Below, one piece after another: positions 33,048 through 52,147 of a stretch of 64,000 nt of DNA. A model generated the notes under the pieces. That model searched no databases, was not told the origin of the DNA, and was given only the letters and a program-made list of their open reading frames with translations. The stretch's first letter is position 1. The number at the start of each line of letters is the position of its first letter. Both the position numbers and the translations under genes were made by a program. Location of the stretch: positions 1-64,000 of the forward strand of contig NZ_AWEZ01000050.1 of the NCBI RefSeq assembly GCF_000468755.1, read 5' to 3'. Source of the DNA: Olsenella profusa F0195. Its GTDB lineage: Bacteria; Actinomycetota; Coriobacteriia; Coriobacteriales; Atopobiaceae.

Positions 33048-34013
33048 CTACGCAAACATGTTGCGTTCCATGAACTCTGCCTGTACCGTGCGGAACATGA
33101 GGTCGACGTCCTCGAGGCCCAGATGGGTCTCCTGCTGGTTGGCATCCAGGGTGCCGCGGCGGCGCGCCCAGCTCTCCAAGGCGGCAGGGCGCGAGTCGCG
33201 GGGGAGCATGCGGTACTCAGGGTCGATGCGCCGGCAGATGTCGCGTGTGTCTATGGGCACGATCTTGCCGGCCTTGCGTGCCTCGGCGTAGCCGTCGATG
33301 GTGAGTATGAACCATGAGTCCTCGAATGCGGCATTGTGTGCCATGAACGGATAGGTCTCAAGCGTGGTCAGGAGGGCCCGCTGCATCTTCCCATTGGAGC
33401 GCAGGGGCTTCTTGTCGGCAATGTCATCCCAGGTGATGTGGTGCACAAACGAGAGGGGGATGCCCGTCTTCCTGTACATCTCGGGAATGCCGCAGTAGGC
33501 GCTGAAGGGGTGCTCGGGCCTTGCCCGTGCCGAGAGCTCCATGAACTCCAGGCCGACATTGAGCACATAGCCGCGGCCGGGGTCGCGCTCGGTCGTCTCG
33601 ATGTCGATGCCGCACACCATGCCCGAAACGGGAGCCTCCACATAGGCGATGCCCAAGTCCACACAGTTGGGGCCTGCCGTCTTGGCCACCTCGTCCTCGC
33701 TGCGGTGCTGCATCCGTGCAACGGCACGAATGAGGTCCTCGTCCGAGAGGCGTTTGGAGAGCATGGCAGGGGAGACGTTGCGCAGGCGATCGATGCCGTA
33801 GCTGTCACAGGCGGTGCGGTTGCGATCGGCAAGGCCTCTCACGAGGTCATACGAGAAGGGCTCCTGCCCGAGTGGCGCTTCCCACCAGGCGGCCGAGAGA
33901 AGCTCCATGGCCTCCTCGTTGCGCTCGCGCTCGGCCGTGAGCGTGGCGTCATCCGCCACGAATCCTGGAAAGACGAAAGCGCTCGCATGCTCCAGTGCCT
34001 GACTCAGGTTCAT
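33048..34013 (-). CDS. DEDDh-type 3'-5' exonuclease with N-terminal extension
   Basis: A ~321-residue protein. The second half is an exonuclease domain of the DnaQ/RNase T type: GIDIETTERDPGRGYVLNVG gives the first acids, YPFMAHNAAFEDSWFILTI the second, and THLGLEDVDLM the His and last Asp. The first ~130 residues (ELLSAAWWEAPLGQEPFSYDLVRGLADRNR, LSKRLSDEDLIRAVARM) are a helical extension I do not recognise. Two starts are possible, 34019 and 34013; GGGGG fits the second better. It may trim DNA or RNA ends; it has no polymerase partner here. Confidence 0.82.
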   Translation of the reverse strand: MNLSQALEHASAFVFPGFVADDATLTAERERNEEAMELLSAAWWEAPLGQEPFSYDLVRGLADRNRTACDSYGIDRLRNVSPAMLSKRLSDEDLIRAVARMQHRSEDEVAKTAGPNCVDLGIAYVEAPVSGMVCGIDIETTERDPGRGYVLNVGLEFMELSARARPEHPFSAYCGIPEMYRKTGIPLSFVHHITWDDIADKKPLRSNGKMQRALLTTLETYPFMAHNAAFEDSWFILTIDGYAEARKAGKIVPIDTRDICRRIDPEYRMLPRDSRPAALESWARRRGTLDANQQETHLGLEDVDLMFRTVQAEFMERNMFA

Positions 34014-35025: not shown

Positions 35026-35180
35026 GACCGTCTCCTCCCGTATGCATTCGGCATTCCTGCTCAGTGTACCCCATGCGTCAGGATATGCCGTTACGTCTTT
35101 GTTGCGCCGCATCGACGTTTCCTATCACAGGCGTACGCATATGACTATACCCCTGCGACGAGTAATTCCTACCATTTTGC

Positions 35181-35209
35181 TTGACATTGCAGGGGTCGGG
35201 TCATAGATT
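35181..35209 (+). promoter_or_regulatory. Promoter of the cysK leader
   Basis: TTGACA (35181-35186) and TAGATT (35204-35209) are separated by exactly 17 bases. Transcription would start near 35216, giving a leader of about 260 bases before cysK. Confidence 0.75.
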
Positions 35210-35253
35210 GTCTTCCAGGAGCATAGGACATCGATCGACAAGGGGAGAGGAGC

Positions 35254-35340
35254 ATGCCCGTGCGTCAGTGCATCGCACCATGTTGTTGTACGCCCGCGCT
35301 CCCTTCGCCGTGTCGCACGGATGTTCGTAGCATACGCTAG
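35254..35340 (+). CDS. Cysteine leader peptide of cysK
   Basis: A 28-residue peptide, MPVRQCIAPCCCTPALPSPC..., read from ATG 35254 after the strong site GGGGAGAGGAG. It has five Cys, three as consecutive TGT codons (35281-35289). It lies between the promoter and a perfect terminator upstream of cysK. The bases just behind the TGT run (35296-35306, GCGCTCCCTTC) can pair with 35385-35395 (GAACGGGACGC), which includes the 5' arm of the terminator. That is the layout of a ribosome-mediated attenuator: stalling at Cys codons would free the antiterminator. The translation and the mechanism are inferred. Confidence 0.7.
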   Translation: MPVRQCIAPCCCTPALPSPCRTDVRSIR

Positions 35341-35388
35341 CCTGCATCCGGTCGGGCGCCATGCCCCTCACTCAGACACAGGTTGAAC

Positions 35389-35412
35389 GGGACGCCGTAG
35401 CGTCCCTTTTTT
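35389..35412 (+). terminator. Attenuator terminator in the cysK leader
   Basis: GGGACGC (35389-35395), loop CGTA, GCGTCCC (35400-35406), then six T. It is a perfect rho-independent terminator 66 bases before the cysK start. Its 5' arm has an alternative partner in the leader ORF (35296-35306), so it is probably conditional. Confidence 0.85.
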
Positions 35413-35477
35413 GTGGGCGTCCTGCTCGGCTGGTCATAGGTTCAAGTTGGGAACGCATGTCATTTGGAGGAAGCACC

Positions 35478-36389
35478 ATGAAGTATGCAAGCAAGGTAGA
35501 GTCCGTCATTGGTTCCACGCCCCTCATCGATCTCTCGGTCCTCGCAGATGGCGCGGCCACCGTCCTGGGCAAGTACGAGGCAACGAACCCCGGTGGATCC
35601 GTGAAGGATCGTATCGCCAAGGCCATGGTCGACGCTGCCGAGGGGGACGGCAGCCTCAGGCCCGGCGGCACCATCATCGAGCCTACGAGCGGCAACACCG
35701 GTGTCGGGCTGGCGATGATCGCGGCCGAGCGCGGCTACAGGATGGTGCTCGTCATGCCCGAGACCATGTCCATCGAGCGGCGCAAGCTTGCTGCCAGCTA
35801 CGGTGCGCAGATCGTGCTCACGCCGGGTCCCGAAGGCATGACCGGTGCCGTCAGGCGGGCCGACGAGCTCAAGGACGAGACCCCCGGCGCCATCGTCGCT
35901 GGCCAGTTTGTGAACCCCGCGAACCCCGAGGCCCACTACAAGACCACGGGCCCCGAGGTCTGGACCGACACCGATGGCACGGTCGATGCCTTCGTGGCCG
36001 GTGTCGGCACGGGCGGTACCGTGAGCGGTGCCGGTAGGTACCTCAAGGAACGGAGGTCCTCGGTGAGGGTCGTTGCCGTCGAGCCGGCGGAGAGCCAGGT
36101 GCTTGCCGGCAAGCCCTCTGGATCCCATCGCATCCAGGGAATCGGTGCCGGCTTCGTGCCCAAGACCTACGATGCGTCCGTGGTCGACGAGGTCGTCCCC
36201 ATCTCCTCCGATGATGCGATTGACGTCAAGAAGCGCCTGGCGAGCGAAGTGGGGCTGCTGGTGGGCATCAGCTCCGGCGCTGCGGTGGCCGCAGCGGTGG
36301 TGCTGGCACGTCGTCCCGAGTGCGCGGGCAAGACCATCGTGGCCATCCTGCCCGATACGGGCGAGCGCTACCTGTCCATGGATCTGTAG
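35478..36389 (+). CDS. cysK: Cysteine synthase A (O-acetylserine sulfhydrylase)
   Basis: A 303-residue PLP enzyme that makes cysteine from O-acetylserine and sulfide. The PLP lysine is in TNPGGSVKDRIAK (Lys43). The substrate loop is EPTSGNTGVGLAMIAAERGY, the phosphate loop is GVGTGGTVSGAGRYLKE, and GKPSGSHRIQGIGAGF plus the late SSGAAVAA motif are typical. GGAGGAAGCACC precedes ATG 35478. No serine acetyltransferase gene is present here. The gene is preceded by a Cys leader peptide and an attenuator-like terminator, so cysteine supply probably controls it. Confidence 0.95.
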   Translation: MKYASKVESVIGSTPLIDLSVLADGAATVLGKYEATNPGGSVKDRIAKAMVDAAEGDGSLRPGGTIIEPTSGNTGVGLAMIAAERGYRMVLVMPETMSIERRKLAASYGAQIVLTPGPEGMTGAVRRADELKDETPGAIVAGQFVNPANPEAHYKTTGPEVWTDTDGTVDAFVAGVGTGGTVSGAGRYLKERRSSVRVVAVEPAESQVLAGKPSGSHRIQGIGAGFVPKTYDASVVDEVVPISSDDAIDVKKRLASEVGLLVGISSGAAVAAAVVLARRPECAGKTIVAILPDTGERYLSMDL

Positions 36390-40951: not shown

Positions 40952-41374
40952 TCAGTCACCTTCGCTCTGCGGCCGTGTGATGTCGGCAAGTGTTCGGCTG
41001 TCCAAGAACTCTGCGGTCATCGCGCCCAGATCGCGCCACATGCCCACGGTGAGACAGGTGGTCACCTGTGGGCATATCTCGTCATTGGTGCAATCCAGGC
41101 ACGCCACGGGAGCAAGCGAACCCTCGGCGGCGCGCAAGATCTGTCCCAGAGTGTACTCCTCGGGCCTGCGTGTCAGACGATAGCCGCCGCCCTTGCCGCG
41201 TGCGCTTTCCACGAGCTTTGCCCTATGCAGCAGCGAGACCACCTGTTCGAGGTACTTGCGCGAGATGCCCTGCCGCTTCGAGACGTCCCCGAGCGATACC
41301 CAGCCTGGGTGCGTCGCAAGGTCGCTCATGATGCGCAGGGCATAGCGTCCCTTTGTGGAGAACATGCCGGCCAT
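40952..41374 (-). CDS. Rrf2-family Fe-S regulator (IscR/SufR-like)
   Basis: A 140-residue winged-helix protein. The start MFSTKGRYALRIMSDLA and the recognition segment VSLGDVSKRQGISRKYLEQVVSLLHRA are typical of Rrf2. A cysteine cluster VACLDCTNDEICPQVTTC probably binds an Fe-S cluster, as in IscR. ATG 41374 follows GGAGG at 7 bases; ATG 41365 is another possibility. It is the last gene of sufS-sufU-rrf2. It likely represses this operon and sufCBD, whose promoters share a motif. Confidence 0.9.
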   Translation of the reverse strand: MAGMFSTKGRYALRIMSDLATHPGWVSLGDVSKRQGISRKYLEQVVSLLHRAKLVESARGKGGGYRLTRRPEEYTLGQILRAAEGSLAPVACLDCTNDEICPQVTTCLTVGMWRDLGAMTAEFLDSRTLADITRPQSEGD

Positions 41375-41376
41375 GG

Positions 41377-41859
41377 CTAGGCCTCCATGACCCTCTCGCT
41401 TGTGCCGCCATCTTCGAGCATCTCCTCAAGGGTGTGCCATGCCAGCTCGGCGCATTTCACGCGTGCGGGCATATGGGAGATGTCGCGCAGCATGGCAGCG
41501 TCCTCGAGCCGGTCGTCCAAGAGGTCCTCGTCGGTCTCCTCGCCTCGTACCATGCGCCCGAAGAGCCTGCAGAGCTCTATGGCCTCCTCGGGAGTCTTGC
41601 CCACCATGAGATCGCTCATCATGTCTGCGGACGCCTGGCTGATGGCACAGCCATGGCCCTGGTAGGAGGCCTCGTCGATGGTTCCGTCATCCGCCATGCG
41701 TACGTAGAACGTGAGCTCGTCGCCACAGGAGGGGTTCACGCCCTCATGGCTGCAGGTGGCGTCCTCCATGGGATACTTGTAGTCTGGATGCTGCACGTGG
41801 TCCATGAACTCGGCATTGTAGAGACCGGTCACACCCGCGGCGCGCTCCCTGTTATCCAT
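41377..41859 (-). CDS. sufU: SUF system sulfur-transfer protein SufU
   Basis: A 160-residue zinc-dependent sulfur acceptor that takes persulfide sulfur from SufS. The three conserved cysteines are in GVNPSCGDELTFY, YQGHGCAISQASADMM and MPARVKCAELAWHTLEE. The SufU-specific insertion (LFGRMVRGEETDEDLLDD) is present, so it is SufU rather than IscU. The start MDNRERAAGVTGLYNAEF at 41859 overlaps the sufS end by 8 bases, indicating translational coupling. The rrf2 gene begins 2 bases after its stop. Confidence 0.93.
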   Translation of the reverse strand: MDNRERAAGVTGLYNAEFMDHVQHPDYKYPMEDATCSHEGVNPSCGDELTFYVRMADDGTIDEASYQGHGCAISQASADMMSDLMVGKTPEEAIELCRLFGRMVRGEETDEDLLDDRLEDAAMLRDISHMPARVKCAELAWHTLEEMLEDGGTSERVMEA

Positions 41860-43120
41860 TGCTGAACACCGTCCAAACCTGCTCGAGCCCGCCAACGAGG
41901 CGGTCAATGTCGTGCTTGTCATTATAGAGGGCCACACTGGCGCGGCAGGTGCTGCCCATCTGAACGTTCAGGTAGGAGAGCAGGGGCTGCGCACAGTGAT
42001 GACCGGCACGGATGCAGATGTCAAAGCCATCCAGGATGGACGCGACATCGTGAGGGTGGATGTGGCTAAGGTTGAATGCGACGGCACCCACATGGCGGCT
42101 GCCGTCCACAGGGCCAATCACCCGAACGAAGTCGAGCGCTGCCAGCTGTTCGGTGAGGTAGGCGGCGAGTGCGCGCTCGCGCCGCTCGACCTGCTCCATG
42201 CCCAGACTCTCGAGGTAGGAGAGCGCGGCGTCAAAGGCATAGATGCCCGCTGCGTCCTGCGTGCCCGCCTCGAACTTCTGGGGTACCGGCGCCCACACGG
42301 CATCGGTCTCGGTGACGGCATCGATCATCTCACCGCCGGTGAGGAAGGGCGGCATCCTGTCCAGTACCTCTGCCGTGCCCCAGAGCGCGCCAATGCCCAT
42401 GGGGCCCATCATCTTGTGCGCGCTGAAGGCAAAGAGGTCGCATCCCAGCTTACGCACGTCGACGGCGATGTGAGGGGCGCTCTGTGCGCCGTCGACCACC
42501 AGGTAGGCACCCACCTCGTGCGCACGGGCCGCGATGGCGGCGACGTCGTTCTCTATGCCGAGCACGTTGGATATCTGCGTGACGGAGACGATCTTTGTCC
42601 TCGGGCCAATCTTGGCCCCAAGCTCCTCGGGCGTGATGCGATAGTCATCATCCAGGCGCAGGTACACGAGCCTGGCACCCGTGGCGGCGCACACCTGCTG
42701 CCAGGGGATGAGGTTGGAGTGGTGCTCCATGATGGAGATGACCACCTCGTCGCCGGGCCCCAGTACGGTGCGGCCCAGCGAGCTTGCCACCAGGTTGAGG
42801 GATTCGCTCGTGTTGCGGGTGAACACGATCTGGTGGGCCTGAGGGCGTCCCTGCTCGTCGAGCGCGCCGATGAAGCGTGCGACATGCGCACGGGCCTTGT
42901 CGATTGCCGAGGTGGCATTGACGGAGAGCCTGTAGAGGCCACGCAGGGGATTTGCGTTCATGGTCTCATAGAAGCGGCGCTGTGCGTCCAGCACCGTGGT
43001 GGGGCGCTGCGAGGTGGCGGCGCTGTCGAGGAACACGAGCCGCTCGTTGGACGCGAGCAGCGGGAAGTCCTGCCTATGGGGGTTGTCCTCGATCAGGGAG
43101 AGCTGAGTCTCGGTCAGCAT
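41852..43120 (-). CDS. sufS: Cysteine desulfurase SufS
   Basis: A 422-residue group II cysteine desulfurase, the sulfur source for SUF Fe-S assembly. Motifs: FPLLASNERLVFLDSAATSQRP, the PLP lysine in FAFSAHKMMGPMG, and the catalytic cysteine in CIRAGHHCAQPLLSYL. ATG 43120 is chosen because AAGGAG lies 10 bases before it; the ATG at 43129 is only one base from the site. A hairpin (CCACGG-TGTT-CCGTGG, 43140-43155) sits just before the ribosome binding site. It heads the sufS-sufU-rrf2 operon. Confidence 0.95.
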   Translation of the reverse strand: MLTETQLSLIEDNPHRQDFPLLASNERLVFLDSAATSQRPTTVLDAQRRFYETMNANPLRGLYRLSVNATSAIDKARAHVARFIGALDEQGRPQAHQIVFTRNTSESLNLVASSLGRTVLGPGDEVVISIMEHHSNLIPWQQVCAATGARLVYLRLDDDYRITPEELGAKIGPRTKIVSVTQISNVLGIENDVAAIAARAHEVGAYLVVDGAQSAPHIAVDVRKLGCDLFAFSAHKMMGPMGIGALWGTAEVLDRMPPFLTGGEMIDAVTETDAVWAPVPQKFEAGTQDAAGIYAFDAALSYLESLGMEQVERRERALAAYLTEQLAALDFVRVIGPVDGSRHVGAVAFNLSHIHPHDVASILDGFDICIRAGHHCAQPLLSYLNVQMGSTCRASVALYNDKHDIDRLVGGLEQVWTVFSNG

Positions 43121-43164
43121 GGGGCACATGCTCCTTACCCACGGAACACCGTGGAACATAATCT

Positions 43165-43192
43165 CTACTTACGGGGTAGGATTTTACCCCTT
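43165..43192 (-). promoter_or_regulatory. Putative Rrf2/SufR site in the sufS promoter
   Basis: The plus strand reads CTACTTACGGGGTAGGATTT then TACCCCTT. A nearly identical block lies at 52102-52130 in front of sufC. On the minus strand it contains TAAAAT, a likely -10 box at 43186-43181. The inner part GGGGTA-N6-TACCCC is an inverted repeat. A repressor here would block the promoter. Confidence 0.6.
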
Positions 43193-48744: not shown

Positions 48745-49821
48745 TTAGAGCTCCAACGCCTCCGCGAGGTCGCCGGCGATCTCGTCGCCGAGCACCGCTC
48801 GGGCACGGGTGAGCACGGCGTCGCGTCCCGTGTCGCAGCGCGCGTGAATGACGGCATCGTCGAAGATGGCGCGCGCATGCAGGGCATACGCCTCGTCCTC
48901 GGCAAGGCCGCGGTTGGCAAGGTAACCCAGCTGCTCGGGGCCAACCGAACCGATGGAGGCGCCGTGGTTGCCCTGGACGTCGTCCTCGTCGCAGAGGATG
49001 ATGGGCAGGGTCTTGTTGACCACGTCGTCACCAAGGACGAGCACGGTCTCGGTCTCGTTGCCCCGGGAGCCCTTGGCGCCGTGGGCGAGGTCGATGGTCT
49101 CGCGCATGGTCTTGTGGGCGCCGTCGTCCAAGAGGCCACGTGCATGCAGGTCGGCGCGGGTGTCATGGCCACGCTGGCGCACGACGTGGTTGACGTCGAG
49201 GCGCTCCTGCCCCCTGGCAAAGTAGCGGGTCTCCAGCTCGAGACGGGCACCGTCCCCCAGGAGGCTCACGCCGAGCCCCAGGGCGACGTTGCGGCCACCG
49301 AGGGCATACTGACGAAGCTTGACGGTGGTGTGCGCGCCGGCTGCGATGCCGAGCCCCTCGAGGTGCGTGCCGCCCTCCCCGAGGGCGACGATCTCCACCA
49401 CCGTGAGCCTGACGTTGCCCTCGCACACGATGCGCGCCAGGTTGGCAGAGGTGGTCTCGGCGTCGTTCGTGCCACGGCTCACGAGCACGACGGTGGCCTC
49501 AGAGCCCTCGCGCAGCATGACGCCCGTGTCGCGCACGGCACCCCTGGCGGCTTCGGCCTCCAGGACGATGGGACGCTCGCGCACGGCGTTGCGAGGGACC
49601 TCGATGTAGTGGGAGTCACCGGCGGAGCGCTCCACCCACTGTGTGGCCTCGGGCCCAATGCCGTCCTCCACCGTGCCAAAGAGCTGGGGCAGGCGCGCGG
49701 GCACCTCTCCCGTGCTCGTGGGGACGGGCAGCCTGAGCGTGGCCTCGTCGATCTTGAGGTAGTTCCAGGTCTGTGCCGGTGGGGTGTTGACGCGTTCGAG
49801 CGTGGCATAGGCGGTGTCCAT
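48745..49821 (-). CDS. sufD: Fe-S cluster assembly protein SufD
   Basis: A 358-residue SufD, a beta-helix scaffold partner of SufB in the SufBC2D complex. The family pattern is seen in SHYIEVPRNAVRERPIVLEAEAARGA, LDVNHVVRQRGHDTRADLHARGLLDDGAHKTMRETIDL and NHGASIGSVGPEQLGYLANRGLAEDEA. The late HGASIG His is conserved. Its start shares one base with the sufB stop (TGATG), so the genes are coupled. It is the last gene of sufCBD. Confidence 0.93.
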   Translation of the reverse strand: MDTAYATLERVNTPPAQTWNYLKIDEATLRLPVPTSTGEVPARLPQLFGTVEDGIGPEATQWVERSAGDSHYIEVPRNAVRERPIVLEAEAARGAVRDTGVMLREGSEATVVLVSRGTNDAETTSANLARIVCEGNVRLTVVEIVALGEGGTHLEGLGIAAGAHTTVKLRQYALGGRNVALGLGVSLLGDGARLELETRYFARGQERLDVNHVVRQRGHDTRADLHARGLLDDGAHKTMRETIDLAHGAKGSRGNETETVLVLGDDVVNKTLPIILCDEDDVQGNHGASIGSVGPEQLGYLANRGLAEDEAYALHARAIFDDAVIHARCDTGRDAVLTRARAVLGDEIAGDLAEALEL

Positions 49822-51266
49822 CAGCCGATCGCCCCTTCCATCTCGAGCTTGATCAGGTTGTTCATCTCGACGGCGTACTCGAGCGGCAGCTCCTTCGAGA
49901 CGGGGTTGGCAAAGCCGTTGACCACCATGGAGCGCGCCTCGGCCTCGGAGCAGCCGCGGCTCATGAGGTAGAGGATCGTGTCGTCCGAGATGCGGCCGAT
50001 GGTGGCCTCATGACCCACCGAGGCCGTGCTGTTGCGCACATCCATGGCAGGTATGGTGTCGGAGCGGCTGATGTCATCCAGCATGAGCGACTGGCAGCTG
50101 ACCGTTGCGCGCGCGTTGTCCGCATGGCGCCCCACCACGACGGAACTCCTGAAGGTGTTGAGACCGCCGTCCTTGGAGATGGACTTGGTGTCCACGGAGG
50201 CGGTGGTGTTGGCACCATTGAGGATGACCTTGCAGCCGGTGTCCAGGTCCTGCGTGGCGCCGGCGAACGTGATGCCCGTGAACTCGCAGGTGGAGTTGGC
50301 TCCCTCGAGGATGGTGGTGGGGTAGAGGTAGCTCACGTGGCTGCCAAACGAGCCGGAGACCCACTCCATCTTGGCCCCGGCGCCCACCTTGGCACGCTTG
50401 GTGTTGAGGTTGTACATGTTCTTGGACCAGTTCTCGATCGTGGAGTAGCGCAGGCGCGCGCCGTCCCTCACGAAGAGTTCCACCGCACCGGCGTGGAGGT
50501 TCGCCTCATAGTACTTGGGCGCAGAGCACCCCTCGATGAAGTGGAGGTCGGCGCCCTCCTCCACGACGATGAGCGTGTGCTCGAACTGCCCCGCGCCGGA
50601 GGCATTGAGGCGGAAGTAGCTCTGCAGCGGGTAGTCCACGCGCACGCCGGCGGGCACGTACACGAAGGAGCCACCGGACCACACGGCATAGTGCAGCGCG
50701 GCGAACTTGTGGTCACACAGGGGGATGAGCGTGCCGAAGTACTCCCTCACGACGGGCTCCCACTCAGGATCGTGCAGGGCGTCCTCGATCGTGGTGTAGA
50801 TGACGCCCGACTTGGCGACCTCCTCGCGCATGTTGTGGTAGACGATCTCTGAGTCATACTGGGCGCCCACGCCGGCGAGGCTCTCACGCTCCGCCTCGGG
50901 GATGCCCAGCCGCTCGAAGGTGTCCTTGATGTCCTTGGGAACGTCGTCCCAGTCGCGCGCCTGCTTCGTGCCGGCGCTCACGTAGGTGGAGATGTGGTCC
51001 ATGTCCAGGCCCGAGATGTCGGGCCCCCAGTTGGTTGCCATGGCGCGGTCGTGATACACCTCGAGGGCCTTCAGGCGCAGGTCGAGCATCCACTGGGGCT
51101 CGTCCTTCTTGTGGCTGATGGAGCGCACGATGTCAGGGGTGAGGCCGTCGGCGTAGCGCTCGTAGCCTTCCTCGGACATCCTGAAGTCGTAAAGCGAGCG
51201 GTCGACGTCGGTCACCTTGGTACGGCCCTTCTCGTCGAGCTCGGGCCTTTGGATGATGTCGCTCAT
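49821..51266 (-). CDS. sufB: Fe-S cluster assembly protein SufB
   Basis: A 481-residue SufB, the scaffold subunit on which Fe-S clusters are built. The order of motifs is normal: GLTPDIVRSISHKKDEPQWM, LDMDHISTYVSAGTKQARDWDDVP, FVYVPAGVRVDYPLQSYFRLNA, FIEGCSAPKYY, and late QSLMLDDISRSDTIPAMDVRNSTASVGHEATIGRI. The Cys in CSAP and the Glu/His scaffold residues are present. It begins 2 bases after sufC stops. Confidence 0.96.
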   Translation of the reverse strand: MSDIIQRPELDEKGRTKVTDVDRSLYDFRMSEEGYERYADGLTPDIVRSISHKKDEPQWMLDLRLKALEVYHDRAMATNWGPDISGLDMDHISTYVSAGTKQARDWDDVPKDIKDTFERLGIPEAERESLAGVGAQYDSEIVYHNMREEVAKSGVIYTTIEDALHDPEWEPVVREYFGTLIPLCDHKFAALHYAVWSGGSFVYVPAGVRVDYPLQSYFRLNASGAGQFEHTLIVVEEGADLHFIEGCSAPKYYEANLHAGAVELFVRDGARLRYSTIENWSKNMYNLNTKRAKVGAGAKMEWVSGSFGSHVSYLYPTTILEGANSTCEFTGITFAGATQDLDTGCKVILNGANTTASVDTKSISKDGGLNTFRSSVVVGRHADNARATVSCQSLMLDDISRSDTIPAMDVRNSTASVGHEATIGRISDDTILYLMSRGCSEAEARSMVVNGFANPVSKELPLEYAVEMNNLIKLEMEGAIG

Positions 51267-51268
51267 GG

Positions 51269-52042
51269 CTATGCCTCGGCCTCCTCGGCCTGGGCCTCTT
51301 CGCCCTCGAAGCGGGCGAAGCCGTTGACGTCGATGTCACCGATGAGGGAGGCCGGGCCATCGGCCACCAGGCGGCCCTTCACCATCACGTGCGTGCGATC
51401 GACGTCGAGCCTCTCGAGGATGCGCGTGTTGTGCGTGATCATGAGCAGTGCGCCATCGCACGTGCGGCGATAGGCCTCGATGCCGTGGGACACCACGGAG
51501 AGCGCATCCACGTCCAGGCCGGAGTCGGTCTCGTCGAGGATGGCGAGACGAGGCTTGAGCAGCAGGAGCTGCAGCATCTCGACCTTCTTCTTCTCGCCCC
51601 CGGAGAAGCCCACGTTGAGCTCGCGGGTGAGGAAGCTCTCCGGAATGTCCAGCTGCTCCGAGATCTCTGCGATGCGCTTGCGGAACGTGCGGGCACCCGT
51701 CTTGAGCTCGGGGCGCATTTGGGTGATGGTGCGCAGGAAGCTGTACAGCGGCACGCCCGGCACCTCCACGGGTGCCTGGTAGGAGAGGAAGACGCCCGCG
51801 AGCGAGCGCTTGTCGGCAGAGAGGTCCGTGATGTCCTCGCCACCAAAGGTGATGGTGCCGGATGAGACCTTGTAGATGGGGTCACCCATGATCACATGGC
51901 CGAGCGTGGACTTGCCGGCGCCGTTGGGGCCCATGAGCACGTGGGTCTCGCCCGCGCCAACGCCGAGGTTGATGTCGTGAAGGATGGGCTTGGTCTCGGT
52001 TCCTGCCGAGAGCCCCGTCACATCGAGCAGCTTTTCGGACAT
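51269..52042 (-). CDS. sufC: Fe-S cluster assembly ATPase SufC
   Basis: A 257-residue ABC-type ATPase that drives SufBD conformational change. Walker A is MGPNGAGKSTLGHVIMG, the signature is VGFSGGEKKKVEMLQL, Walker B is LAILDETDSGLDVDAL, and the H-loop is ALLMITHNTRIL. The E-T-D replacement after Walker B is characteristic of SufC. ATG 52042 follows AAAGGGG. The C-terminal acidic tail (FEGEEAQAEEAEA) is a local addition. It heads the sufCBD operon. Confidence 0.96.
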   Translation of the reverse strand: MSEKLLDVTGLSAGTETKPILHDINLGVGAGETHVLMGPNGAGKSTLGHVIMGDPIYKVSSGTITFGGEDITDLSADKRSLAGVFLSYQAPVEVPGVPLYSFLRTITQMRPELKTGARTFRKRIAEISEQLDIPESFLTRELNVGFSGGEKKKVEMLQLLLLKPRLAILDETDSGLDVDALSVVSHGIEAYRRTCDGALLMITHNTRILERLDVDRTHVMVKGRLVADGPASLIGDIDVNGFARFEGEEAQAEEAEA

Positions 52043-52101
52043 GATGCCCCTTTCCACAAGGCAGCGAGCCGCCCCCGGGAGAGCGGCATATGAGGTAATT
52101 C

Positions 52102-52147
52102 CTACTTACGCTGTGGGAGTTTACCCCCTTGCGTGCGCTTCATTCAA
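52102..52147 (-). promoter_or_regulatory. sufC promoter with putative Rrf2/SufR site
   Basis: On the minus strand TTGAAT (52147-52142) and TAAACT (52123-52118) are 18 bases apart. The block at 52102-52130 (plus strand CTACTTACGCTGTGGGAGTT then TACCCCCTT) matches 43165-43192 in front of sufS at about 23 of 28 positions, over the -10 box in both. Confidence 0.65.

Follow-up and report, generated by a model that had tools for sequence, protein, structure and literature searches.

A candidate cysteine-codon attenuator in front of cysK and related leaders in the Atopobiaceae

Attenuators of the trp and his type combine a leader open reading frame (ORF) carrying a run of regulatory codons with an alternative antiterminator and an intrinsic terminator, and the gene that they control acts in the corresponding pathway. 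Actinobacterial examples of the trp attenuator are given in PMC1262725. For cysteine, Cys-codon leader peptides have been described before cys and cbs operons of Mycobacterium, P. acnes and B. longum, without recognizable terminators (Seliverstov et al. 2005, PMC1262725); owing to this lack of visible terminators, the mechanism of Cys leaders in Actinomycetota was left open there. Mycobacterial polycysteine leaderless ORFs (Canestrari et al. 2020) are cysteine-responsive attenuators according to the passages of PMC13236596 and PMC9031893 that cite them. The uORFC-8-2 motif, located upstream of cysS in Rhodobacterales, contains tandem Cys codons, two stems and an intrinsic terminator (PMC8632094).

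Here we analyse the leader of cysK in the window, the whole 64-kb stretch of DNA studied, whose host belongs to the Atopobiaceae and has Olsenella massiliensis and Parafannyhessea umbonata as close named relatives by CysK. Like the classical trp and his attenuators, the locus has a codon-run leader ORF, an antiterminator/terminator pair and a gene of the matching pathway; unlike them, it would sense cysteine and act on cysK, and its predicted off state depends on a leader hairpin, not on region 2 being blocked by a ribosome at the stop codon. It shares with the leaders of Mycobacterium, P. acnes and B. longum a short Cys-run ORF before a cysteine gene in Actinomycetota, but differs from them in having an intrinsic terminator. 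In contrast to the mycobacterial leaderless ORFs, as these are portrayed in the citing passages, its ORF has a Shine–Dalgarno (SD) sequence and an ATG away from the transcript 5' end. The locus has the features listed above for uORFC-8-2, although that motif belongs to Alphaproteobacteria and precedes cysS, whereas the window target is cysK in Actinomycetota. The window element is a textbook kind of switch, here in a family, and a class (Coriobacteriia), for which the open-access literature searched yielded no earlier report of a Cys attenuator.

Organization of the cysK leader region

The initial annotation had placed a promoter, a leader ORF with a Cys run and a terminator in front of cysK, and every coordinate that we checked agrees with the sequence (Table 1). 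To these we add a longer antiterminator of 17 pairs, a protector hairpin and an Rrf2-type operator. The promoter is the sole promoter-like site between positions 34000 and 37500 (0.6 expected from shuffles). The leader ATG lies 44 bases 3' of the −10 box, with the transcription start inferred, and GGGGAGAGGAGC stands 5' of the ORF. The product, MPVRQCIAPCCCTPALPSPCRTDVRSIR, has Cys at codons 6, 10, 11, 12 and 20; four of these five codons are TGT, whereas TGC outnumbers TGT by 44 to 14 in the window genes counted. The terminator sits between the leader ORF and cysK, about 65 bases before the latter. A terminator scan found one such site versus 1.4 in shuffles, so its occurrence alone is not significant. 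CysK scores above the TIGR01139 cut-off, as expected for an enzyme of cysteine synthesis, the pathway that matches the leader codons.

Table 1 Features of the cysK leader and of associated loci in the window
Feature	Positions	Strand	Basis or remark
Rrf2/IscR-type operator-like palindrome ATTCCTACCATTTTGCTTGACAT	35165-35187	+	3 mismatches to ATTCCTASYNNNNNRSTAGGAAT; overlaps −35 box
Sigma-70-type promoter TTGACA-N17-TAGATT	35181-35209	+	Sequence scan
Leader ribosome-binding site AGGGGAGAGGAG	35241-35252	+	Sequence; counterpart in G041 is GAGGGGAGGGAATCATG
Region 1:2 protector hairpin, covering leader SD and antiterminator strand	about 35236-35317	+	Predicted fold
Leader peptide ORF, 28 codons, 5 Cys codons	35254-35340	+	TGC 35269, TGT 35281/84/87, TGT 35311
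Region 2, antiterminator 5' strand GCGCTCCCTTCGCCGTGTC	35296-35314	+	Pairs with 35375-35395
Region 3, antiterminator 3' strand GACACAGGTTGAACGGGACGC, containing terminator 5' arm	35375-35395	+	Folding, G041 comparison
Intrinsic terminator GGGACGC-CGTA-GCGTCCC-TTTTTT	35389-35412	+	Sequence scan; hairpin −12.4 kcal/mol
cysK, cysteine synthase A, 303 aa	35478-36389	+	TIGR01139, 416.7 bits (cut-off 350.95)
sufS-sufU-rrf2 (IscR-like) operon	40952-43120	-	Operator-like palindrome 43161-43183 in front
Rrf2 protein, IscR-like	40955-41374	-	Below IscR equivalog cut-off, above Rrf2 cut-off
sufC-sufB operon	49821-52042	-	Operator-like palindrome 52098-52120 in front

The leader matched no Rfam family at the gathering threshold, and relaxing the limit to E values of 5 brought in only eukaryotic families, which are implausible; having no match to a known RNA family, it does not group with T-boxes or riboswitches. 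A raiA RNA (RF03072, 159.5 bits) lies at positions 42–297 of the window.

Predicted folding of the leader and proposed switch

To judge from sequence, folding and relatives, this region is very probably a ribosome-mediated transcription attenuator that responds to Cys-tRNA(Cys) and governs cysK. Transcription would start near 35216 and a ribosome would begin the leader ORF. With Cys-tRNA scarce, the ribosome would stall at the early Cys codons (35269, 35281), leaving 35296–35314 free to pair with 35375–35395 once the latter is transcribed; this pairing would consume the terminator 5' arm, and cysK would be read through. With Cys-tRNA plentiful, the ribosome would clear the Cys run and the leader would refold into the 35236–35317 hairpin, so that 35375–35395 would remain unpaired and the terminator would end transcription. 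A further layer of control, at the DNA level, is probably provided by the Rrf2/IscR-type operator that overlaps the promoter.

In the predicted folds, antiterminator and terminator are mutually exclusive, and the antiterminator is exposed in the modelled stalled state. The initial annotation had paired the strand behind the Cys run with the terminator 5' arm through ten base pairs; all ten exist and all are standard, but the predicted duplex is longer, extending to 35314:35375 with 17 pairs in total. When the ribosome edge is set to 35295 and transcription has proceeded only through the terminator 5' arm, the ten pairs form with P of 0.95–0.99, compared with about 0.1 without a ribosome and with ≤0.01 when a ribosome occupies the stop codon. 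In these last two states, a hairpin of about −37 kcal/mol hides the antiterminator strand (the MFE of 35217–35320 is −36.8 kcal/mol) and the terminator forms with P of 0.99–1.0. By folding, the off state rests on this leader hairpin and not on the stop-codon ribosome.

The antiterminator duplex reaches −23.9 kcal/mol versus −12.4 kcal/mol for the terminator hairpin, and shuffles reach it at 0.012 and 0.036. When the full leader is folded at equilibrium in the stalled state, the terminator is still favoured by 1.7 kcal/mol; because the terminator wins slightly at equilibrium, the switch would have to work kinetically, with the antiterminator forming first. A stall on the last (third) TGT leaves the antiterminator strand partly free (P 0.54), and the whole strand is freed only by a stall at the early Cys codons. 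The switch under Cys starvation proposed in the initial annotation is supported by these folds, and is amended in its antiterminator length, its off state (leader hairpin), its stall site (early Cys codons only) and its kinetic choice.

Distribution and conservation of Cys-run leaders

Three consecutive Cys codons within an ORF of 8–50 codons occur on the plus strand of the 64-kb window in this leader alone, and once on the minus strand. Searching the host genome with the leader DNA revealed no second copy; a weak match on contig C45 lies inside an apparent sulfhydrylase-like gene and was set aside. Other GGAG-ATG-Cys3 matches in the genome were not enriched over a control pattern.

For comparison, we gathered 150 cysK upstream regions from the order. 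A region scored positive when a short ORF no more than 350 bases from cysK had three or more Cys, two of them adjacent, in seven codons. Such ORFs are present in 24 of the 150 regions (reverse strand, 2; dinucleotide shuffles, mean 3.05). Two of the 24 hits (L138 and L163) look like chance and were removed. The remaining 22 credible leaders all fall in five Atopobiaceae genera: g1 (the window species twice, G038 and G040), g19 (G036), g22 (G043), g31 (G078 and G080) and g35, where 14 of the 15 regions examined carry one. None of 40 cysK regions from other families of the order has a Cys-run leader. Two further leaders are below the strict criterion and visible by eye, CACWCIC in G077 (g31) and CRIC...C in G041 (g1).

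The leader is identical in another genome of this species, where the 330 bases 5' of cysK differ at one position, upstream of the promoter. The initial annotation had named a lack of conservation of the ORF or the pairings in relatives as grounds for rejecting the switch, and the comparison gave no such grounds. In G041, a member of the same genus with 81% identical CysK, the leader, the antiterminator strand and the terminator are kept, but the Cys triplet is not. There, 16 of the 17 window antiterminator pairs are standard and one is broken: 12 are unchanged, three have turned from C–G to U–G, and one from T–A to C–G with both sides changed (35305:35386). All seven terminator pairs (7/7) are unchanged, and the G041 antiterminator duplex reaches −27.5 kcal/mol in its own best register. 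The TGT at 35311, which lies inside the antiterminator strand, is kept in G041, probably for pairing rather than meaning.

Analogous leaders followed by a terminator are found in G038 and G040 (same genus) and in other genera (G036, G043 and genus g31), with complementary strands behind the Cys codons. For G036 and three g31 species, the leader's strongest complement of the terminator arm is the strand close behind the Cys codons; for G038, G040 and G043, the complementary strands are not clearly distinguishable from other GC-rich pairings. A region 2 shuffle test was applied across leaders. L001, L103, L148 and L160 passed it, L110 was borderline, and L099, L126, L141 and L144 gave a negative result; given this mixed outcome, pairing energy alone is not taken as proof. 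Besides the equilibrium energies and the partial release by a stall on the last TGT, several points count against the attenuator: GC-rich leaders pair easily, G041 is without the CCC run, and L099, L110 and L238 show no stronger pairing behind the Cys codons than elsewhere in the leader, with the stalled-state shuffle test not significant.

RNA outputs and an operator-like palindrome in the Atopobiaceae

Three RNA layouts lie behind the Cys leader: the direct terminator/antiterminator of the window, a predicted his-like five-segment arrangement, and a leaderless-looking ORF with a hairpin. Five g35 genomes (L126, L141, L144, L233 and L234) have a leader with two Cys groups, for example MCCQMCC or CCCVACC. 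In their predicted folds, pairing of ORF strand A with B and of C with the terminator arm is favoured under stalling, and pairing of B with C together with the terminator is favoured when the ribosome is at the stop codon. As modelled, these leaders resemble the his attenuator; several completed stalled-state folds still show the terminator.

Nine further g35 genomes (L119, L122, L125, L128, L132-L135 and L139) have type III leaders, which are MKTMANIFRCCCTCAVPGS-like with a conserved MANIFRCCCTCAVPG. Their ATG lies about 7 bases 3' of the −10 box, which suggests a leaderless ORF. A GCCCGGG...CTCGGGC hairpin and a GGCTCGGGCGTAAAGCC element are conserved in them, and none has a U-tract terminator; alignment folding of this type gave no clear link of the leader to the cysK SD. 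Type III leaders are closer to the mycobacterial Cys leaders, as described in the passages citing them, than the window leader is.

The absence of a U-tract terminator in type III leaders speaks for a different reading of the window, namely translation-dependent control without termination in the mycobacterial poly-Cys style, whereby a stalled ribosome alters the cysK ribosome-binding site or Rho access and the hairpin at 35389 is incidental. The known mycobacterial Cys leaders also are without terminators (PMC1262725) and are termed translation attenuators where PMC13236596 and PMC9031893 cite them. For the window we consider this unlikely: its terminator is strong, with six T, 65 bases before cysK, is kept in G041 and is present behind the Cys leader in other genera, and the cysK ribosome-binding site is outside the predicted switch. 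The Atopobiaceae hold complete antiterminator/terminator versions beside apparently leaderless, terminator-free ones, and these close relatives would allow transcriptional and translational cysteine attenuation to be compared. Such diversity of outputs in one family is unusual, and is a more interesting part than the window element itself.

When at most four mismatches are allowed, the palindrome ATTCCTAG-N-CTAGGAAT occurs before 100 of the 110 cysK genes of the Atopobiaceae, compared with 1 of 150 shuffled regions. At three mismatches, the pattern has four sites genome-wide, which is not above control, so the support for the operator is its conservation upstream of cysK. Three of the four sites are in the window, at cysK and upstream of sufS-sufU-rrf2 and sufC-sufB (Table 1); by its sequence, the operator is apparently common to the cysK promoter and these suf operons. 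The Rrf2 protein contains a C-X5-C-X5-C motif, as does IscR, and this protein may bind at cysK.

With the operator far commoner than the 22 credible Cys leaders, and with the IscR-like gene 4.6 kb from cysK, the terminator and leader might be constitutive dampers, cysteine or Fe–S control being exerted solely by an Rrf2-type repressor at the operator. This we hold to be very unlikely, as it leaves unexplained the repeated Cys-codon leaders, their enrichment and the conservation of the antiterminator strand. It is extremely improbable that the leader ORF specifies a small Cys-rich peptide with a function of its own, such as metal or thiol binding, and stands before cysK by chance: close relatives in g35 do keep the sequence of the peptide MKTMANIFRCCCTCAVPGS, but across genera the peptides have little common sequence outside Cys and vary in length from 20 residues upward, and the features kept are position and pairing with the terminator.

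For the ribosome-mediated attenuator, the elements, their conservation and their pairing possibilities are established by sequence and comparison, and stalling, termination, the cysteine response and the identity of the operator's protein are what we infer. We give about even credence to a wider arrangement, in which one Cys-tRNA sensor under an Rrf2/IscR-type operator is wired to at least three RNA outputs in one family; cysK would then integrate Fe–S status at the promoter and Cys-tRNA charging in the leader. If so, the Atopobiaceae would offer a natural series in which to follow the turnover of attenuator circuits. The cysK locus also suggests a link between cysteine supply and the control of Fe–S assembly in this family.

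In another genome (G135:C9, about 51300–51600, minus strand; L258/L263), a similar operator and a Cys-rich, apparently leaderless ORF, MERVATCQTAVCVRFCRRQFDISRVCGTCSSG..., stand in front of a polar amino-acid ABC transporter gene, possibly for cystine. This leader is not clearly conserved in other genomes; operator-like sites are present in several g35 relatives.
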